NCBI GenBank assembly: GCA_011037195.1
Contig: JAAEAF010008042.1
Span: 1 to 64,000, forward strand
DNA length: 64,000 nt
Direction of reading: 5' to 3'
Source: Triatoma infestans
Taxonomy: Eukaryota; Arthropoda; Insecta; Hemiptera; Reduviidae
A model generated the notes under the pieces. It did not search any database. It saw only the letters and a list, made by a program, of their open reading frames with translations, and was not told where the DNA came from. A program made the position numbers and the translations under genes. Position 1 is the first letter of the stretch. Each line of letters starts with the position of its first letter. Shown here one piece after another: positions 22,846 through 29,816 of the stretch.

Positions 22846-23117
22846 TGTAGGGGTAGTGAACCCCCACCACTCATCCACACTGGCGAGTGAACCCCCACCA
22901 CGCATCAGAGAGAAAGAGCCCCTCTCGAGAGAGAGGAGAGGAGAGGCCAGTTGGATATATATACGAGAGACAGAGTCAAAAAAAAGGACATTCTGATCAC
23001 AGTCTCACACTTGAATTGTACACAAATGTTTAGCCACGTCAGTCAGTCTGTTCAGTTCTTGTAGTGTAAAGTATACAGTCCTTGGCAGTCAGTCATATAC
23101 ATATATATCAATTATAT
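22846..23117 (+). mobile_element. Older LTR-like sequence, left part (split by the Gypsy insertion)
   Basis: It starts TGTAGGGG and contains 'tgaacccccaccac' repeated twice, a 'gatatatatacgagagac' TATA-like box and a leader rich in 'cagtcagt' motifs. After the 6.6-kb Gypsy insertion the sequence resumes at 29762 and reaches 'ctcctcctaca' at 29816, so the rejoined unit would begin TGTAGG and end CCTACA, as LTRs do. No flanking duplication was found. Confidence 0.4.
23114..23117. repeat. Target-site duplication ATAT (left)
   Basis: ATAT immediately precedes the 5' LTR and recurs at 29762-29765 immediately after the 3' LTR. Metaviridae integrases usually duplicate 4-6 bp. The local sequence is A/T-rich, so the match alone is weak, but it sits exactly at both LTR edges. 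Confidence 0.7.
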
Positions 23118-23351
23118 TGTTGCAAGCAGGCGAGAGGTTCGGGGCGGCTGGGGCCAGGCGCCCGGTAGAGTTGGAGTGGGGCAAGTAGGTGGGTGGAAGT
23201 GTCTCGACTAGCCGAGGGCGGGCTGAAGCTTGTGGAAGGGTCTAGGCCAGTACCGGCCAGGCGCCCGGTAGAGTTGGAGTGGGGACGTGTCTCGACTGGC
23301 CGAGGGCGGGCTAGATGCGTGTGGAAGGGTCTAGGCCTGCCCACCCCAGCG

Positions 23352-23359
23352 TATATAAA
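23352..23359 (+). promoter_or_regulatory. TATA box of the 5' LTR
   Basis: TATATAAA, followed by a G+C-rich initiator region. It is identically placed in the 3' LTR (about 29440-29447). The role is inferred from sequence and position. Confidence 0.7.
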
Positions 23360-23598
23360 TGAGCCGGCGTGCAGTCCAACAGCAGTTCTTTGGACGCAGG
23401 GCTATCTGCGAGCGTGTTTACATCAGTGATAATTCAAGTGTGACAGGGTGGATACTATTGTGACAGTTTAGGATAGTTTAGTGAATATTTTAATAGAATT
23501 AGTTTAGTTAAGTGAATAGTCTAGTGAATATTTTAATAGAGCTAGTAGTTAAGTGAATAGTTTAGTGAACTATAATAAGCGTTTTAAATTAGTGTTAA

Positions 23599-23604
23599 AA
23601 TAAA
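23599..23604 (+). promoter_or_regulatory. Polyadenylation signal in the LTR
   Basis: AATAAA located about 70 bp before the LTR end. The equivalent hexamer in the 3' LTR is at 29690-29695, where it would direct 3' processing of the element's transcript. Confidence 0.65.
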
Positions 23605-23672
23605 GACGAGTCTAGTAGATATTGTGTTACTTATTTATTTCCTAGTCTGACCTACAACGAACTAGTAACAAT

Positions 23673-23690
23673 TGGTGTCAGGTGCGGGGG
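23673..23690 (+). other. Primer-binding site
   Basis: TGGTGTCAGGTGCGGGGG begins two bases after the 5' LTR. The leading TGG complements the universal tRNA CCA end, and TGGTGTCAG fits tRNAs ending CTGACA-CCA, as several animal tRNA-Leu do. The tRNA identity is an inference; complementarity beyond nine bases is unverified. Confidence 0.7.
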
Positions 23691-23753
23691 TCAGACTTGG
23701 AAAAACGTGAAGTGTTTTACAGAAAAGTGACTTTGAACTCGAAGTGTGACAAG

Positions 23754-25000
23754 ATGGTTGTGAAGAAACTAGCCGAACTGACTGTTCCTGAACTGAAGAG
23801 TGAGCTCGAGGAGAGAGACGAGGAAACCATCGGTAAAAAAACAGTTCTTCAACAACGCTTAAGAGATGCGCTCGAAGCAGCAGGGGAAAACCCAGATGAG
23901 TATCTTTTCGAGATAGATTCTATTAAATCTCTGAAGGAAGAACTAAAGGTAGATATAATTCAAAATCATTGGAAGACAAATTGGAAGCAAAATTAGATCA
24001 AAATTCAAAATCATTGGAAGAGAAATTAGCTCAAAATTCCAAATCATTGGAAGACAAATTAGCTCAGAACTCCGTATTATTGGGAGAAGAACTAAAGGCG
24101 GACTTAATTAAAAACTGCGAATTTCTGCGAAAAGAGTTAGACGAGAAATTAACAAGTCAGTTGATGGAAAGTGCGACATCGTTAAGAGAAGAATTACGCG
24201 AAAACTCTCAAACACTGAATGGAAAAATATCTGCAATAGCGAAACGTCTGAAGGAAGTCGAAGAAAACCGCCCTGGATCGATAACCCCGGCAATGCCTAC
24301 ATCAGGACGGGACATACCTACATTTGACGGCAAATCAGCCTGGGAGGAGTATCTAACGTTATTTGAGACGGTGGCTGCGGTGGATGAATGGTCAGCGAAG
24401 ACGAGGGGCTCCATGTTGAGCATGTCACTACGTGGTGAAGCCCTGCAAGTCCTCCGAATTATTCCTATGCAGGAGAGACAGAACTATGATGAACTTATCA
24501 AACATCTGGAAATGCGATTTGGCCAACAGCACATGGAGCCTGTCTACAGGTCGCAGTTGAAGAACAGAATCCAGAGGCCGAATGAAACCCTACAGGAGTT
24601 CGAGGCCGACGTAGTGCGACTGGTCAAGTGCGCTTACCCTACAGTTCCGGATGATGTCTACGAGAGCCTTGCAATTGACAGGTTCCTGGATGGGTTTCGA
24701 GAAGCCGAAACTCAGCAAGCTGTGAAACTAGCTCGGCCCCGAACATTGAATGAAGCGCTATCACAGGCCCTCGAATTTGAAGCGGTGAGGCAGTCAGTGC
24801 GCGGTCCCGCTCGGATCCGTTCTGTGGAAGGCACCACGGAAGAACCTCGTTTGCCAGCACTGGAAGACATTGTGCAGAAGGTTCTCGACGCGCTAAGGAC
24901 CGAGAAACGTGAAGTCCGCTGCTGGAACTGTGGAGGACTAGGACATCTGAGAAGCCGTTGTCCTAAGCCTCAGAAACCCAGGAAGTCGCCGGAAAACTAA
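23754..25000 (+). CDS. Gag polyprotein, SAP-like N-terminus, frame-disrupted
   Basis: The first ATG is at 23754 (MVVKKLAELTVPELKSEL). Residues about 5-40 fit a SAP motif: an amphipathic helix 'LTVPELKSELEER', a Gly-Lys turn and a second helix 'LQQRLRDAL'. SAP modules bind A/T-rich or scaffold-attachment DNA. A coiled-coil follows, made of 11-residue repeats of the 'QNSKSLEEKLA' type. The frame changes near 23960-23970. Positions 23969-25000 continue with the coiled coil, a capsid-like region ('YRSQLKNRIQRPNETLQEFE' and on) and a CCHC zinc knuckle CWNCGGLGHLRSRC at 24920-24961 that binds the element's RNA. The frame offset equals loss of one base; the local sequence suggests a 7-bp unit of a tandem 'tcaaaat' pair was lost. 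Gag forms the particle that packages the RNA. Confidence 0.85.
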
Positions 25001-27735
25001 AAAGGGTTGGCGGGAAGGGGCAACCGTCGATCCGTATTACCGAGGCCCCGGAACATCACGCAACCGTCGCATCTCTGGGATGTACGGCGAACAGCATTTT
25101 TTTGGATGGTGAAGTGAATGGCAGGAACAGAAGACTATTGCTGGACACTGGAGCGACGATGACTATTCTGAAACCCGAAGCCGTCGCCCCGAATAGTCGC
25201 ATAGGGCCAACCAGGTGGGTGCTACGAACAGCAACGGGAGCTTCGGTAACAACCCACGGTGAGACAGTTGCCAACTTCCGTATCGGGGGTATCAGCTTCG
25301 AACACCAGGTGCTAGTGGCCAATATAGAAGAAGAAGTCATCATCGGAATGGACATTATGATCAAATACGGTTTTAAACTGGATTTACAAAACGGCGTGAT
25401 CAAGATAGGACACGAAGAAGTTGTACTCCAAGGACGTGAGGATATGTCGGCACGCGTCGTCTCGACTGAGGACACAACTATCGAGGGACGAAGTGAGGTG
25501 ATGGTACTCGCCAGCTTGGATCGAGTGGTTCCAGAAGGCCGCATAGCGATGTTGGAACCGTTGTTATTTAACAATGGGGCAGGGAGAAATGTCCTGGTGG
25601 CGAAGAGCCTAGTCCACACAGGAAAAGCAGTCCCGGTACGGCTCATGAACATCAATGACTACCCAATTACCATCAAGAAAGGGTGCCTTCTGGGATATTG
25701 TTCACCCATATCTTCGGTTGTTAGACAAGCTCGACACGCCACTACGCAGCCGCAACGGTCATCGAAAGAATTTGAAGACTTCGTTCAGCAGGTGTGTAAA
25801 GACCTTACTGTAGACCAACGTGCGGAAGTTGCAGGCTTGCTGCACCGATACCAAGACGTCTTTGAGCAGGGAGGGGGCTCCAAAGGAAGAACCAGCGTCG
25901 TACAACACCGTATTGATACTGGCGACGCAAGACCTATTCGCCAAACGCCTAGAAGACTGCCCCTGGCCAAACGTGAAGAGGCCGAGCAAATCATCCGTGA
26001 CATGGCAGAGGACGGGGTGATTGAACCATCGAAGAGCCCATGGGTATCTCCCGTAGTGCTGGTGAAAAAGAAGGATGGCTCTTCTCGCTTCTGTGTCGAC
26101 TATCGTCAACTCAACAACGTGACGAAGAAGGACCGTTACCCCCTAGCCCGGATTGATGACACGCTTGACACTTTGGTTGGCTGCAACATCTTTTCCACCT
26201 TGGACCTGAAGAGCGGATATTGGCAGGTGGGATTACACCCCGAGGATAAGGAGAAGACAGCTTTCTCTATCGGCTCAGGTTTGTGGCAGTTCAATGTAAT
26301 GCCGTTTGGGCTGTGTAATGCTTCAGCCACGTTCGAGCGTCTGATGGACAATGTCCTGCGAGGAATGGCTTGGGAAACCTGCCTGGTCTACTTGGATGAC
26401 GTCATCGTCTTGGGTAAATCGTTCACAGAACATCTGAAGAACTTGGAACAAGTGTTCTTGCGTCTACGAGCAGCCAACCTTAAACTCAACCTCAAGAAAT
26501 GTAACCTGCTGCAGAAGAAGGTCCACTTCCTTGGCCACGTTGTTTCAGGAGAAGGTGTCTCTGTGGACCCGCAGAAGACAAATGCTGTAAAGGAGTGGCC
26601 AACCCCTAAGGACAAGCACGAGGTAAGAAGCTTTCTTGGGCTCTGCACCTACTATCGCAGGTTTGTTCCAGGGTTTGCCAACATCGCCAAGCCTCTTACT
26701 CGGCTGACAGAAGAAGGACGCAACTTCGTCTGGGATGACTCTTGCCAGCGCGCGTTCGAGGAACTGAAGAGGACACTGATGGCGGCCCCAGTACTCAGTT
26801 ATCCCCGGCCCGAAGGGAAGTTCATACTAGACACGGATGCTAGTAACGTGGGCATTGGAAGTGTCTTATCCCAGCTCCAGGATGGGCAGGAGAGAGTGAT
26901 CGGGTACTTCAGCAAGACCCTGTCAAAGCCAGAACGCAACTACTGTGTGACACGCAGGGAACTACTGGCCGTGGTCAAGTCAATTGAACACTTTCATAAG
27001 TACTTGTATGGACGGAGCTTTCTCCTGAGGACTGACCATGCTGCGCTGTTGTGGTTGCTCCGATTCAAGAACCCGGAGGGACAAGTTGCACGATGGATCG
27101 AAAGGTTACAGGAATATGATTTCACCACTGAACACCGTGCTGGACTGAACCACCGAAATGCCGATGCCCTGTCAAGAAGACCCTGCCAGGAAGAATGTAG
27201 ACACTGCAGTCGACTGGAGGAGACTGCGGCAACGGCTTGCAGGGTTACTGTCACCGATGACAATTGGCAGATCACTGAGATCCGCAAGGAGCAAGAAGAA
27301 GATCCAGACCTAAACAAGTTGCTGAAATGGAAGAGAGAAGGAAACAGGCCGACCTGGGAGGAAATTGCTCATCTCTCTCGCAGGCTGAAGTCATATTGGG
27401 CTCAGTGGGACTCCTTACTCCTGCAAGATGGTCTTCTGAAAAGAGTCCTGGAGAGTGAAGACGGAACGTCGAACCGACTTCAGATAGTGGCTCCAACGAA
27501 GCGGATACCTGAGATATTAAAGTTACTCCATGACGGAACATCTGGCGGACACTTGGGTGTTCGGAAGACATTGGACAAGATTAGGCAGAGGTTTTACTGG
27601 CTTAACTGCAAGGACGATGTAAAAGACGTGCAGGAAGTGCGTGGTGTGTGCTACGGCCAACGGACCCCACCGAAGGAAGAAGGCACCCATGAGGCAGTAC
27701 AACGTCGGAAGCCCTTTCGAAAGGATTGTAGTTGA
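24967..27735 (+). CDS. Pol part 1: protease, reverse transcriptase, RNase H, integrase N-terminus
   Basis: This frame is open from 24967, overlaps the end of gag by 34 bases in the -1 frame, and has no good ATG. A Gag-Pol made by -1 frameshift is likely, with slippage possible near 'ggaaaac' at 24991-24997. Numbering codons from 25102: protease LLLDTGATMTIL (Asp15) and a flap/core IIGMDIM; RT with FSTLDLKSGYW (Asp368), PFGLCNASATF and YLDD (430-433); RNase H with LDTDAS (577-579), Glu620, RTDHAAL (Asp645) and NADALSR (Asp688); integrase zinc-finger start HDGTSGGHLG (His810, His817). The frame fails after 27627, where two bases appear to be missing, and the last 35 or so codons to the stop at 27735 are out of register. 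Confidence 0.93.
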   Translation, partial: ASETQEVAGKLKRVGGKGQPSIRITEAPEHHATVASLGCTANSIFLDGEVNGRNRRLLLDTGATMTILKPEAVAPNSRIGPTRWVLRTATGASVTTHGETVANFRIGGISFEHQVLVANIEEEVIIGMDIMIKYGFKLDLQNGVIKIGHEEVVLQGREDMSARVVSTEDTTIEGRSEVMVLASLDRVVPEGRIAMLEPLLFNNGAGRNVLVAKSLVHTGKAVPVRLMNINDYPITIKKGCLLGYCSPISSVVRQARHATTQPQRSSKEFEDFVQQVCKDLTVDQRAEVAGLLHRYQDVFEQGGGSKGRTSVVQHRIDTGDARPIRQTPRRLPLAKREEAEQIIRDMAEDGVIEPSKSPWVSPVVLVKKKDGSSRFCVDYRQLNNVTKKDRYPLARIDDTLDTLVGCNIFSTLDLKSGYWQVGLHPEDKEKTAFSIGSGLWQFNVMPFGLCNASATFERLMDNVLRGMAWETCLVYLDDVIVLGKSFTEHLKNLEQVFLRLRAANLKLNLKKCNLLQKKVHFLGHVVSGEGVSVDPQKTNAVKEWPTPKDKHEVRSFLGLCTYYRRFVPGFANIAKPLTRLTEEGRNFVWDDSCQRAFEELKRTLMAAPVLSYPRPEGKFILDTDASNVGIGSVLSQLQDGQERVIGYFSKTLSKPERNYCVTRRELLAVVKSIEHFHKYLYGRSFLLRTDHAALLWLLRFKNPEGQVARWIERLQEYDFTTEHRAGLNHRNADALSRRPCQEECRHCSRLEETAATACRVTVTDDNWQITEIRKEQEEDPDLNKLLKWKREGNRPTWEEIAHLSRRLKSYWAQWDSLLLQDGLLKRVLESEDGTSNRLQIVAPTKRIPEILKLLHDGTSGGHLGVRKTLDKIRQRFYWLNCKDDVKDVQEVRGVCYGQRTPPKEEGTHEAVQRRKPFRKDCS

Positions 27736-29194
27736 CATCGTAGGTCCTTTTCCGAGAACAGATGTGGGAAACAAATACATTTTGGTGGCTATGGACTACT
27801 TCAGCAAATGGGTGGAGGCCTACGCTTTACCCGACCAAGAAGCGTCAACTGTAGCAGATGTGCTGGTCAAGGAGCTCGTGAGCCGTTTCGGTGTGCCCCT
27901 TGAACTCCACTCCGACCAGGGGCGGAATTTTGAGTCGACGGTGTTCCAGGACATGTGCAAGATACTGGGAATAAGGAAGACGAGAACAACTGCACTACAC
28001 CCGCAGTCTGATGGGATGGTAGAAAGGATGAATAGAACCATCGGAAAGCATTTGTCTAAGGTTGTCTCCGACCATCAACGAGACTGGGACCAGCATCTTC
28101 CTTTATTCTTGTTGGCGTACCGTTCCGCTGTCCACGAAACAACTGGCCTAAGTCCTGGGAAAGTATTGTTTGGACGAGAATTGAGACTGCCCTGTGACCT
28201 GAAATTCGGATGCAGACCGGATGAAGAAGTGGCTGGGGAAGACTATGTGTCGAACCTCCGAAGAAGAATGGACACCATGCATGACAGAGTTCGGTCATCT
28301 ATTCAGGATGCAAGTGACAGGATGAAAGACCGTTACGATATAAATGCTGACGATGGGGGTTACCAAGCGGGGGACCTTGTGTGGTTGTTCGACCCTAAGA
28401 GACGTCGAGGTTTTTCACCGAAGCTGCAGCGCCCTTGGGATGGCCCGTATGAGATTGTCAAGCGGATCAACGATGTCATATACCGCATAAGAAAGAGGCC
28501 GAACGGCAAACCACGTGTGGTTCACTTCAACCGGCTCGCACCATACCTGGGAGACTCGCCCGATGAGCAGAACATTCGAATTTGCAGAGTACCCAACGAA
28601 GAGCCAACATTCCACGAGTTCATGGAGCGACAGGACATCAGTCACGAGATTCGTTATGGAGTCACGACGGAAGTTGTGCTGGACTTGGTTGAATCACCCA
28701 GAGAACACGCACTGGCCCATTGTGCTGCTCAGGACATATTAATGTCAAGGGGACTGAGCAGAGTAATCCAGAAGAGGTTTGGCCGACCCAAGATTATGGA
28801 AGACCAGAAGCCGGCCGTTGGAAGTGTCTTATACTCGGAGCAGAATGGGCGACACCTGTTTTACCTAATCGCAAAGGCACGCCCCGGTGAGAAATCCAGC
28901 TATCTCAACTTGTGGAACTGCTTGCTCAACATGCGAGACCATCTCCTGAGGCTCAACCTCACCAGGCTCAGCGTACCCAAGCTCGGATCCGGATTCGACG
29001 GGTTAGATTGGCGAATTGTGAGGAACATGCTCGAGGTACTATTCCAGCACACCGGCATCGCGATTCAGGTTTGCTGCTTCAATCCGTGGGCCAAGAAAAA
29101 CACGAAGGAAACTGCCGATGGCGTACCAGTGGGGCAGGCTGCTCCTACCGTCACCACACTTATGGATACCAGTTCCGGGACGGAACAGTCTTAA
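27623..29194 (+). CDS. Pol part 2: integrase core, GPY/F module and TARG1-like macrodomain
   Basis: Continues Pol in the +1 frame. It starts with the zinc-finger cysteines (CRKCVVC, about 27629-27649) that complete the two histidines of part 1. Numbering codons from 27641: the integrase catalytic triad is Asp32 (VVDIVGPF), Asp92 (HSDQGRNF) and Glu128 (MVERMNRT) with the canonical 35-residue D-E spacing. A GPY/F module (WDGPYEIVKR) is at 266-275 and 'VVHFNRLAPY' at 293-302. Integrases of this family normally end soon after this. Here the frame runs on for more than 200 codons: a linker, a macrodomain (about 338-482) and a 35-residue tail, ending at a TAA 11 bp before the 3' LTR. No stop or frame change interrupts integrase core through macrodomain. 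Confidence 0.92.
   Translation, partial: KTCRKCVVCATANGPHRRKKAPMRQYNVGSPFERIVVDIVGPFPRTDVGNKYILVAMDYFSKWVEAYALPDQEASTVADVLVKELVSRFGVPLELHSDQGRNFESTVFQDMCKILGIRKTRTTALHPQSDGMVERMNRTIGKHLSKVVSDHQRDWDQHLPLFLLAYRSAVHETTGLSPGKVLFGRELRLPCDLKFGCRPDEEVAGEDYVSNLRRRMDTMHDRVRSSIQDASDRMKDRYDINADDGGYQAGDLVWLFDPKRRRGFSPKLQRPWDGPYEIVKRINDVIYRIRKRPNGKPRVVHFNRLAPYLGDSPDEQNIRICRVPNEEPTFHEFMERQDISHEIRYGVTTEVVLDLVESPREHALAHCAAQDILMSRGLSRVIQKRFGRPKIMEDQKPAVGSVLYSEQNGRHLFYLIAKARPGEKSSYLNLWNCLLNMRDHLLRLNLTRLSVPKLGSGFDGLDWRIVRNMLEVLFQHTGIAIQVCCFNPWAKKNTKETADGVPVGQAAPTVTTLMDTSSGTEQS
28652..29086 (+). other. Macrodomain (TARG1/OARD1-type ADP-ribosylhydrolase) within Pol
   Basis: This region of about 145 residues follows the TARG1 plan in order: a first strand (TTEVVLDL), 'ALAHCAAQDILMSRGLS' with the LAHC strand and Met-x-x-Gly turn, 'VIQKRFG', 'VGSVLY', 'LFYLIAKARP', 'YLNLWNCLLNMRDHL', 'LSVPKLGSGFDGLDW' and a last strand 'IAIQVCCF'. 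In human TARG1 the hydrolase residues are Lys84 and Asp125; the aligned positions here are Lys412 (codon 28874-28876) and Asp453 (codon 28997-28999), so both are kept. TARG1-type macrodomains remove ADP-ribose from glutamate/aspartate and can act on ADP-ribosylated DNA. The family call comes from motif order and catalytic residues read by eye; activity is an inference. Confidence 0.82.
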
Positions 29195-29205
29195 GGAGGA
29201 GGTAG
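29193..29205 (+). other. Polypurine tract
   Basis: A purine-rich AAGGAGGAGG run immediately upstream of the 3' LTR, overlapping the pol stop codon. It is the expected primer for plus-strand DNA synthesis. Confidence 0.75.
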
Positions 29206-29761
29206 TGTTGCAAGCAGGCGAGAGGTTCAGGGCGGCTGGGGCCAGGCGCCCGGTAGAGTTGGAGTGGGGCAAGTAGGTGCGTGGAAGTGTCTCGACTAGC
29301 CGAGGGCGGGCTAGATGCTTGTGGAAGGGTCTAGGCCAGTACCGGCCAGGCGCCCGGTAGAGTTGGAGTGGGGACGTGTCTCGACTGGTCGAGGGCGGGC
29401 TAGATGCGTGTGGAAGGGTCTAGGCCTGCCCACCCCAGCGTATATAAATGAGCCGGCGTGCAGTCCAACAGCAGTTCTTTGGACGCAGGGCTATCTGCGA
29501 GCGTGTTTACATCAGTGATAATTCAAGTGTGACAGTGTGGATACTATTGTGACAGTCTAGGATAGTTTAGTGAATATTTTAATAGAATTAGTTTAGTTAA
29601 GTGAATAGTCTAGTGAATATTTTAATAGAGCTAGTTTAGTTAAGTGAATAGTTTAGTGAACTATAATAAGCGTTTTAAATTAGTGTTAAAATAAAGACGA
29701 GTCTAGTAGATATTGTGTTACTTATTTATTTCCTAGTCTGACCTACAACGAACTAGTAACA
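29206..29761 (+). repeat. 3' LTR (556 bp)
   Basis: Nearly identical to the 5' LTR over its whole length, with the same internal duplication, TATA box and AATAAA (29690-29695). It ends AACA and is followed by ATAT (29762-29765), the copy of the target duplication. Confidence 0.95.
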
Positions 29762-29816
29762 ATATATCTTATACCGATATTGAGGTGTTATTTATCTATC
29801 AACATCTCCTCCTACA
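29762..29816 (+). mobile_element. Older LTR-like sequence, right part
   Basis: Continuation of the LTR-like sequence interrupted at 23117; it ends 'catctcctcctaca'. See the left part at 22846-23117. Everything here depends on the TGTAGG/CCTACA tips and the TATA/CAGT-rich leader of the left part. Confidence 0.35.

Follow-up and report, generated by a model that had tools for sequence, protein, structure and literature searches.

Why should a retrotransposon extend its integrase with a domain that resembles an ADP-ribose hydrolase? The question is raised by a 64,000-nucleotide stretch of the Triatoma infestans genome (contig JAAEAF010008042.1, positions 1 to 64,000 of the forward strand; hereafter the window), in which a long terminal repeat (LTR) retrotransposon spans 23118–29761. 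An initial annotation, made from the letters alone, had claimed that the integrase frame of this Gypsy element runs open past the GPY/F module into about 145 residues related to the macrodomain hydrolase TARG1 (OARD1), with both catalytic residues present. Each of these points was borne out. The domain reads without a stop in the frame shared by the integrase core and the p58_C/GPY-F module (Table 1), a PDB search matched it to human TARG1 at E = 1.2e-24, and the counterparts of TARG1 Lys84 and Asp125 fall at residues 418 and 459 of the open reading frame (ORF) counted from stop to stop, numbered 412 and 453 from another start in the initial annotation. The correspondence of both residues is seen in the PDB alignment, and the offset of the structural alignment is constant at 10. 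The next PDB chain other than TARG1 was a DarG macrodomain (E = 0.022), while the general Macro model of Pfam reached E = 0.009 with 16.4 bits, below its cut-off of 22. Profile searches had been proposed as the check on this identity; sequence and fold searches do match a macrodomain, with TARG1 the closest, and a macrodomain fold is predicted with high confidence. The G-A-G loop, which is typical of the TARG1-like class and not known as defining it, is present in human TARG1 and in 10 of 11 phage and viral rows compared (two of them identical), and reads [S/P]-R-G in all four retroelement macrodomains. Because of this change, we call the domain TARG1-like, a separate branch and not TARG1 itself.

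Several simpler explanations were ruled out. Chance resemblance or an assembly chimera is excluded by the TARG1 E-value, by a beetle relative described below, by the structural alignment, and by collinear tblastn matches. A host gene lying beside the element is excluded by the single frame shared with the integrase and by the end of that frame at the polypurine tract. Finally, a chromodomain is excluded because Pfam listed none in the 523-residue ORF at E ≤ 1.

The fusion to a Gypsy integrase, also claimed by the initial annotation, recurs in another species. A protein search over a wider length range returned, as one of 281 candidates, P0004, a 1125-residue Callosobruchus maculatus polyprotein with the identical order of reverse transcriptase (RT), RNase H, integrase, GPY/F and macrodomain, followed by a CCCH zinc finger. 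Pfam recognizes the RT, RNase H, integrase zinc domain, core and p58_C of P0004 and does not list Macro at E ≤ 0.1; its macrodomain is identified by alignment with that of the window, all 145 residues of which are covered. Tblastn of P0004 against the window was collinear, with the GPY/F–linker–macrodomain junction aligned as one piece at 49.8% identity, and a portion of the integrase is missing from the P0004 model, probably as a result of gene modelling. A search with the macrodomain only gave two further relatives among 12 candidates, P0002 (223 residues) and P0003 (Aromia moschata), in which Pfam Macro scores barely above its cut-off (24.1 and 22.5 bits, respectively); a protein search with the whole 523-residue ORF gave none among 190 candidates at E ≤ 1e-3. 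P0002 and P0003 begin at or just before the macrodomain, and we infer their integrase fusion from shared flanks: P0002 has the linker and the same tail as the window element, and P0003 the R-Y-G-V-T start and a portion of the finger. The macrodomain of P0004 and P0002 is followed by the CCCH finger and then by a conserved end before the LTR, the finger model PF15663 matching below its cut-off of 31 bits in both (E = 2.9e-5, 24.7 bits, and E = 2.6e-5, respectively). Callosobruchus maculatus and Aromia moschata both belong to the Chrysomeloidea. Judged from these sequences, the integrase–macrodomain fusion is recurrent and not a one-off chimera, and the window element belongs to a lineage also present in beetles. 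The initial annotation had held that family members lacking the region would speak against it; the relatives found all keep the region, but they were sought with that region, so that relatives lacking it would escape detection.

A tree of retroelement, phage and viral-contig sequences, in which seven of 11 inner branches are left open, separates the four retroelement macrodomains from the phage and viral ones by a branch supported at 100/100. As it contains no cellular TARG1, insect sequences included, the tree tests the retroelement branch only and not the source of capture. By eye, an R-[Y/F]-G-V-T start and an M-[S/P]-R-G loop occur in 4/4 retroelement and 0/11 phage and viral rows, while the catalytic Lys and Asp are kept throughout (4/4 and 11/11). 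A scan of IMG/VR viral contigs gave 15 pattern matches and seven TARG1-like loci at 27–32% identity, none with the R-[Y/F]-G-V-T start in the stretches examined; a scan of prokaryote genomes gave 51 pattern matches and no relatives. Of the proposal that the element captured a host-type hydrolase, the TARG1-like fold is supported, but a host is only one possible source, since relatives also occur in phages and in IMG/VR viral contigs. TARG1-like genes of phages (L008–L011 and 13 phage records, including Lactobacillus phages LpeD and LP65, Bacillus phage G and Fusobacterium phages) are often annotated as hypothetical protein, and one RefSeq copy and PHROGs phrog_335 bear the annotation ‘phosphatase’.

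The window copy is itself damaged, and the initial annotation overlooked both the frame change in Pol and a former CCCH finger in the tail. The RT–RNase H ORF (24967–27735) and the integrase ORF lie in different frames, and Pol of this copy is interrupted because the change falls within the integrase zinc domain. Positions 29131–29199, read in the frame of the RT–RNase H ORF, resemble the tails of P0002 and P0004, a likeness equalled by 0 of 500 shuffles for either relative, whereas for the tail in the macrodomain frame 26 and 442 of 500 shuffles did as well against the two relatives; by eye, one Cys is absent from the finger remnant. The match in the other frame and the missing Cys therefore indicate that this copy has lost its finger, its macrodomain frame being open to the stop at the polypurine tract. 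An intact element is ruled out by the breaks in integrase and tail, which are a feature of this copy and not a criterion for the family. The description of a recently mobile lineage fits the identity between the LTRs (546 of 553 aligned positions plus three gap positions, ~98.7%), although this copy no longer has an intact Pol.

Constraint on the macrodomain can be gauged from identity to P0004, which is 76.9% in the RT, 79.1% in RNase H, 76.6% in the integrase core and 77.6% in GPY/F (49 of 59 residues aligned), and falls to 58.3% in the integrase zinc domain (36 of 38 aligned, next to the frame break), 54.0% in the spacer between RNase H and integrase, and 33.3% in the linker (24 aligned of 35). 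The macrodomain, at 49.7%, lies below the Pol core (76.6–79.1%) and nearer to the spacer and the zinc domain; this lower identity indicates a faster pace of evolution than in the catalytic core, and speaks either against the domain being strongly constrained or for change by adaptation. All four retroelement macrodomains combine an open frame and the catalytic residues with 47–61% identity. When neutral decay to 52% identity was simulated with substitutions only, the frame survived without a stop in 32 of 2000 runs, and 44 of 2000 retained the five conserved residues that had been chosen.

What, then, might the domain do? According to PMC7050489, TARG1 cleaves ADP-ribose ester bonds at acidic residues and at the ends of nucleic acids, with Lys as the proposed nucleophile; the partner residue is given there as Glu125, where the aligned human sequence has Asp. 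TARG1 is also reported to reverse thymidine ADP-ribosylation of DNA, an activity abolished by K84A (PMC8501950). The reading that we favour, to which we give about even chances, is that the macrodomain is a predicted ADP-ribosylhydrolase, tethered to the integrase, that would remove host marks at integration. The integrase would carry the fused domain to sites of strand transfer, where the Lys/Asp pair may hydrolyse ADP-ribose esters as in TARG1. Because the macrodomain sits on the integrase, its proposed substrates are at the integration site, and could be ADP-ribose that host PARPs attach to integrase, to neighbouring chromatin proteins, or to the nicks and DNA ends that strand transfer produces. 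With these marks removed, the intasome might stay active and gap repair run to completion, and the CCCH finger, in relatives that keep it, could add RNA or other nucleic-acid binding. PARPs respond to nicks, and it is this response, together with the fusion to integrase, that leads us to prefer an eraser at integration and to infer PARP marks as its target. ADP-ribosylation affects retroelements in other settings as well; in a Drosophila PARP-1 mutant, five of eight significantly changed mobile elements were up, with ten more rises below threshold (PMC7712786). Several observations weigh against an eraser at integration. In the Drosophila work the effect of parp-1 may, as its authors concede, be indirect (PMC7712786), PARP1 overexpression had no effect on L1 in a study of ZAP, as reported in PMC4441479, and no link between integrase and PARP marks in insects turned up in the literature searched. 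To these are added the lower identity of the macrodomain, the broken frame of the window copy, and the [S/P]-R-G loop, a change that might affect catalysis or the binding of ligand.

The same evidence bears on other roles. The macrodomain occupies, directly C-terminal to GPY/F, the slot in which chromovirus integrases carry a chromodomain that steers them to methylated histones, and it could likewise read ADP-ribosylated chromatin or DNA breaks and steer integration there. The altered loop could favour binding over turnover, and the ALC1-like class is described as including readers (PMC7050489), yet the Lys/Asp pair, kept in 4/4 retroelement macrodomains, would be superfluous in a pure reader, and we consider this role unlikely. 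If the marks lie elsewhere, the enzyme might serve counter-defence by stripping host ADP-ribose from Gag, from the ends of element RNA or from silencing factors, with the CCCH finger that follows it in P0004 and P0002 docking it on RNA. There is precedent in mammals, where SIRT6 ADP-ribosylates KAP1 to silence L1 (PMC4695847) and the CCCH protein ZAP/PARP13 restricts L1 (PMC4441479); PMC7050489 adds that RNA ADP-ribosylation may aid recognition of transposon-derived or viral RNA, and gives coronavirus and togavirus macrodomains as a general precedent. However, the domain is fused to integrase and not to Gag or placed in a separate ORF, and the silencing cases cited are mammalian; we consider counter-defence away from integration equally unlikely. 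A captured passenger, open by chance or under weak constraint and of no benefit to the element, would suit the lower conservation relative to the Pol core and the damaged tail, but sits poorly with open frames and catalytic residues in all four sequences, with the rarity of that outcome under simulated neutrality, and with a single branch of shared signatures; we regard it as very improbable.

Returning to an eraser tethered to integrase, the wider claim would be that catalytically complete TARG1-class hydrolases exist in animals as a second lineage, which resides inside the Ty3/Gypsy integrases of beetles and relatives and erases host ADP-ribose at joined DNA ends. We put this forward tentatively, as possible though on balance doubtful; TARG1 is, according to a review, the only hydrolytically active ALC1-like macrodomain of animals (PMC7050489). 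If true, PARP signalling would be a front line between host and retrotransposon. A catalytically complete relative within integrases would be a natural system in which to test whether marks made by PARPs restrict integration or the expression of retrotransposons, and an eraser would extend the counter-ADP-ribosylation of RNA viruses to genomic parasites of insects.

The fusion can be compared with several known systems. Human TARG1/OARD1 (C6orf130), an ALC1-like macrodomain hydrolase, is free-standing, whereas the domain of the element is fused to integrase, has the additional R-[Y/F]-G-V-T start and [S/P]-R-G for G-A-G, and is followed in P0004 and P0002 by the CCCH finger. DarG and the phage and viral TARG1-like macrodomains share the ALC1-like class with it; the DarG model matched at E = 1.4e-5 to 3.7e-14 (24.5–52.7 bits, cut-off 250), DarG is described as lacking the second catalytic residue (PMC7050489), and the phage and viral macrodomains are free-standing small genes where annotated. 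Chromoviruses, also Ty3/Gypsy elements, likewise have an extra C-terminal integrase domain after GPY/F, but theirs is a chromodomain and not a macrodomain with, in the lineage, a CCCH finger. Some epsilon-like endogenous retroviruses of fish encode macro domains (Basta et al. 2009, as cited in PMC4977317); these too are LTR retroelements with an acquired macrodomain, but as an additional ORF, the citing passage mentioning neither an integrase fusion nor a TARG1 type of domain. LTR retrotransposons of bdelloid rotifers have similarly gained host-like enzymes, a GDSL esterase/lipase and a DEDDy exonuclease, but as separate ORF3s (PMC5408684), and neither ‘macro’ nor ‘CCCH’ occurs in the main text of that paper. 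The initial annotation knew of no Gypsy family with this architecture, and indeed no title in the open-licence literature searched describes a macrodomain on a Gypsy integrase; retroelement macrodomains as such are already known from the fish retroviruses, however, and the Gypsy integrase fusion is a variant of that theme.

Table 1. Features of the element in window coordinates.
Feature	Position	Strand	Details
ATAT, left copy of probable 4-bp target-site duplication	23114..23117	.	
5′ LTR	23118..23670	+	553 bases; TGTTGC...TAACA
SAP-domain ORF, probable N-terminal part of Gag	23646..23996	+	PF02037, residues 43–77, E = 1e-9
Gag ORF	23927..25000	+	PNMA-like capsid region and CCHC zinc knuckle
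Pol ORF	24967..27735	+	protease, RT, RNase H, start of integrase zinc domain
Integrase–macrodomain ORF	27623..29194	+	523 codons stop to stop; starts inside integrase zinc domain
rve (integrase core)	27713–27997	+	Pfam E = 4.8e-17
p58_C/GPY-F module	28442–28543	+	PF22938, E = 4.2e-14
TARG1-like macrodomain	28652..29086	+	145 codons, open, in frame with integrase core and p58_C/GPY-F
Lys codon aligned with TARG1 Lys84	28874..28876	+	residue 418 of stop-to-stop ORF
Asp codon aligned with TARG1 Asp125	28997..28999	+	residue 459 of stop-to-stop ORF
CCCH zinc finger remnant and conserved element C-terminus	29113..29199	+	frame of RT–RNase H ORF, not macrodomain frame
Polypurine tract region	29193..29205	+	abuts 3′ LTR; overlaps macrodomain-frame stop codon
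3′ LTR	29206..29761	+	556 bases
ATAT, right copy of probable 4-bp target-site duplication	29762..29765	.	

The assignment to Ty3/Gypsy follows from the domain order (protease, RT, RNase H, integrase) and the p58_C/GPY-F module, and the element also has LTRs and a probable ATAT target-site duplication, the latter weak evidence alone because the flanks are AT-rich. The RT gives a Pfam match at E = 6.1e-34, and the integrase–macrodomain ORF runs from rve through p58_C/GPY-F and a linker to the macrodomain and a short tail. In Gag, the PNMA-like capsid match (E = 7.6e-5, 22.7 bits) is below the Pfam cut-off of 25, and the SAP and capsid ORFs sit in different frames, either naturally or through damage. 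A chromatin- or DNA-binding module within Gag seems unusual, and the SAP module may be related to the integrase extension. Elsewhere in the window, Rfam (gathering thresholds) and tRNA scans gave no matches, and Pfam gave none at E ≤ 0.01 on six other ORFs. The G+C content of the element is 0.499, against 0.350 for the window. Short tandem repeats of 33 bases lie at 23957–24078, in the Gag region near its frame change, and both LTRs hold internal duplicated segments, for example of 31–56 bases at a spacing of 43.
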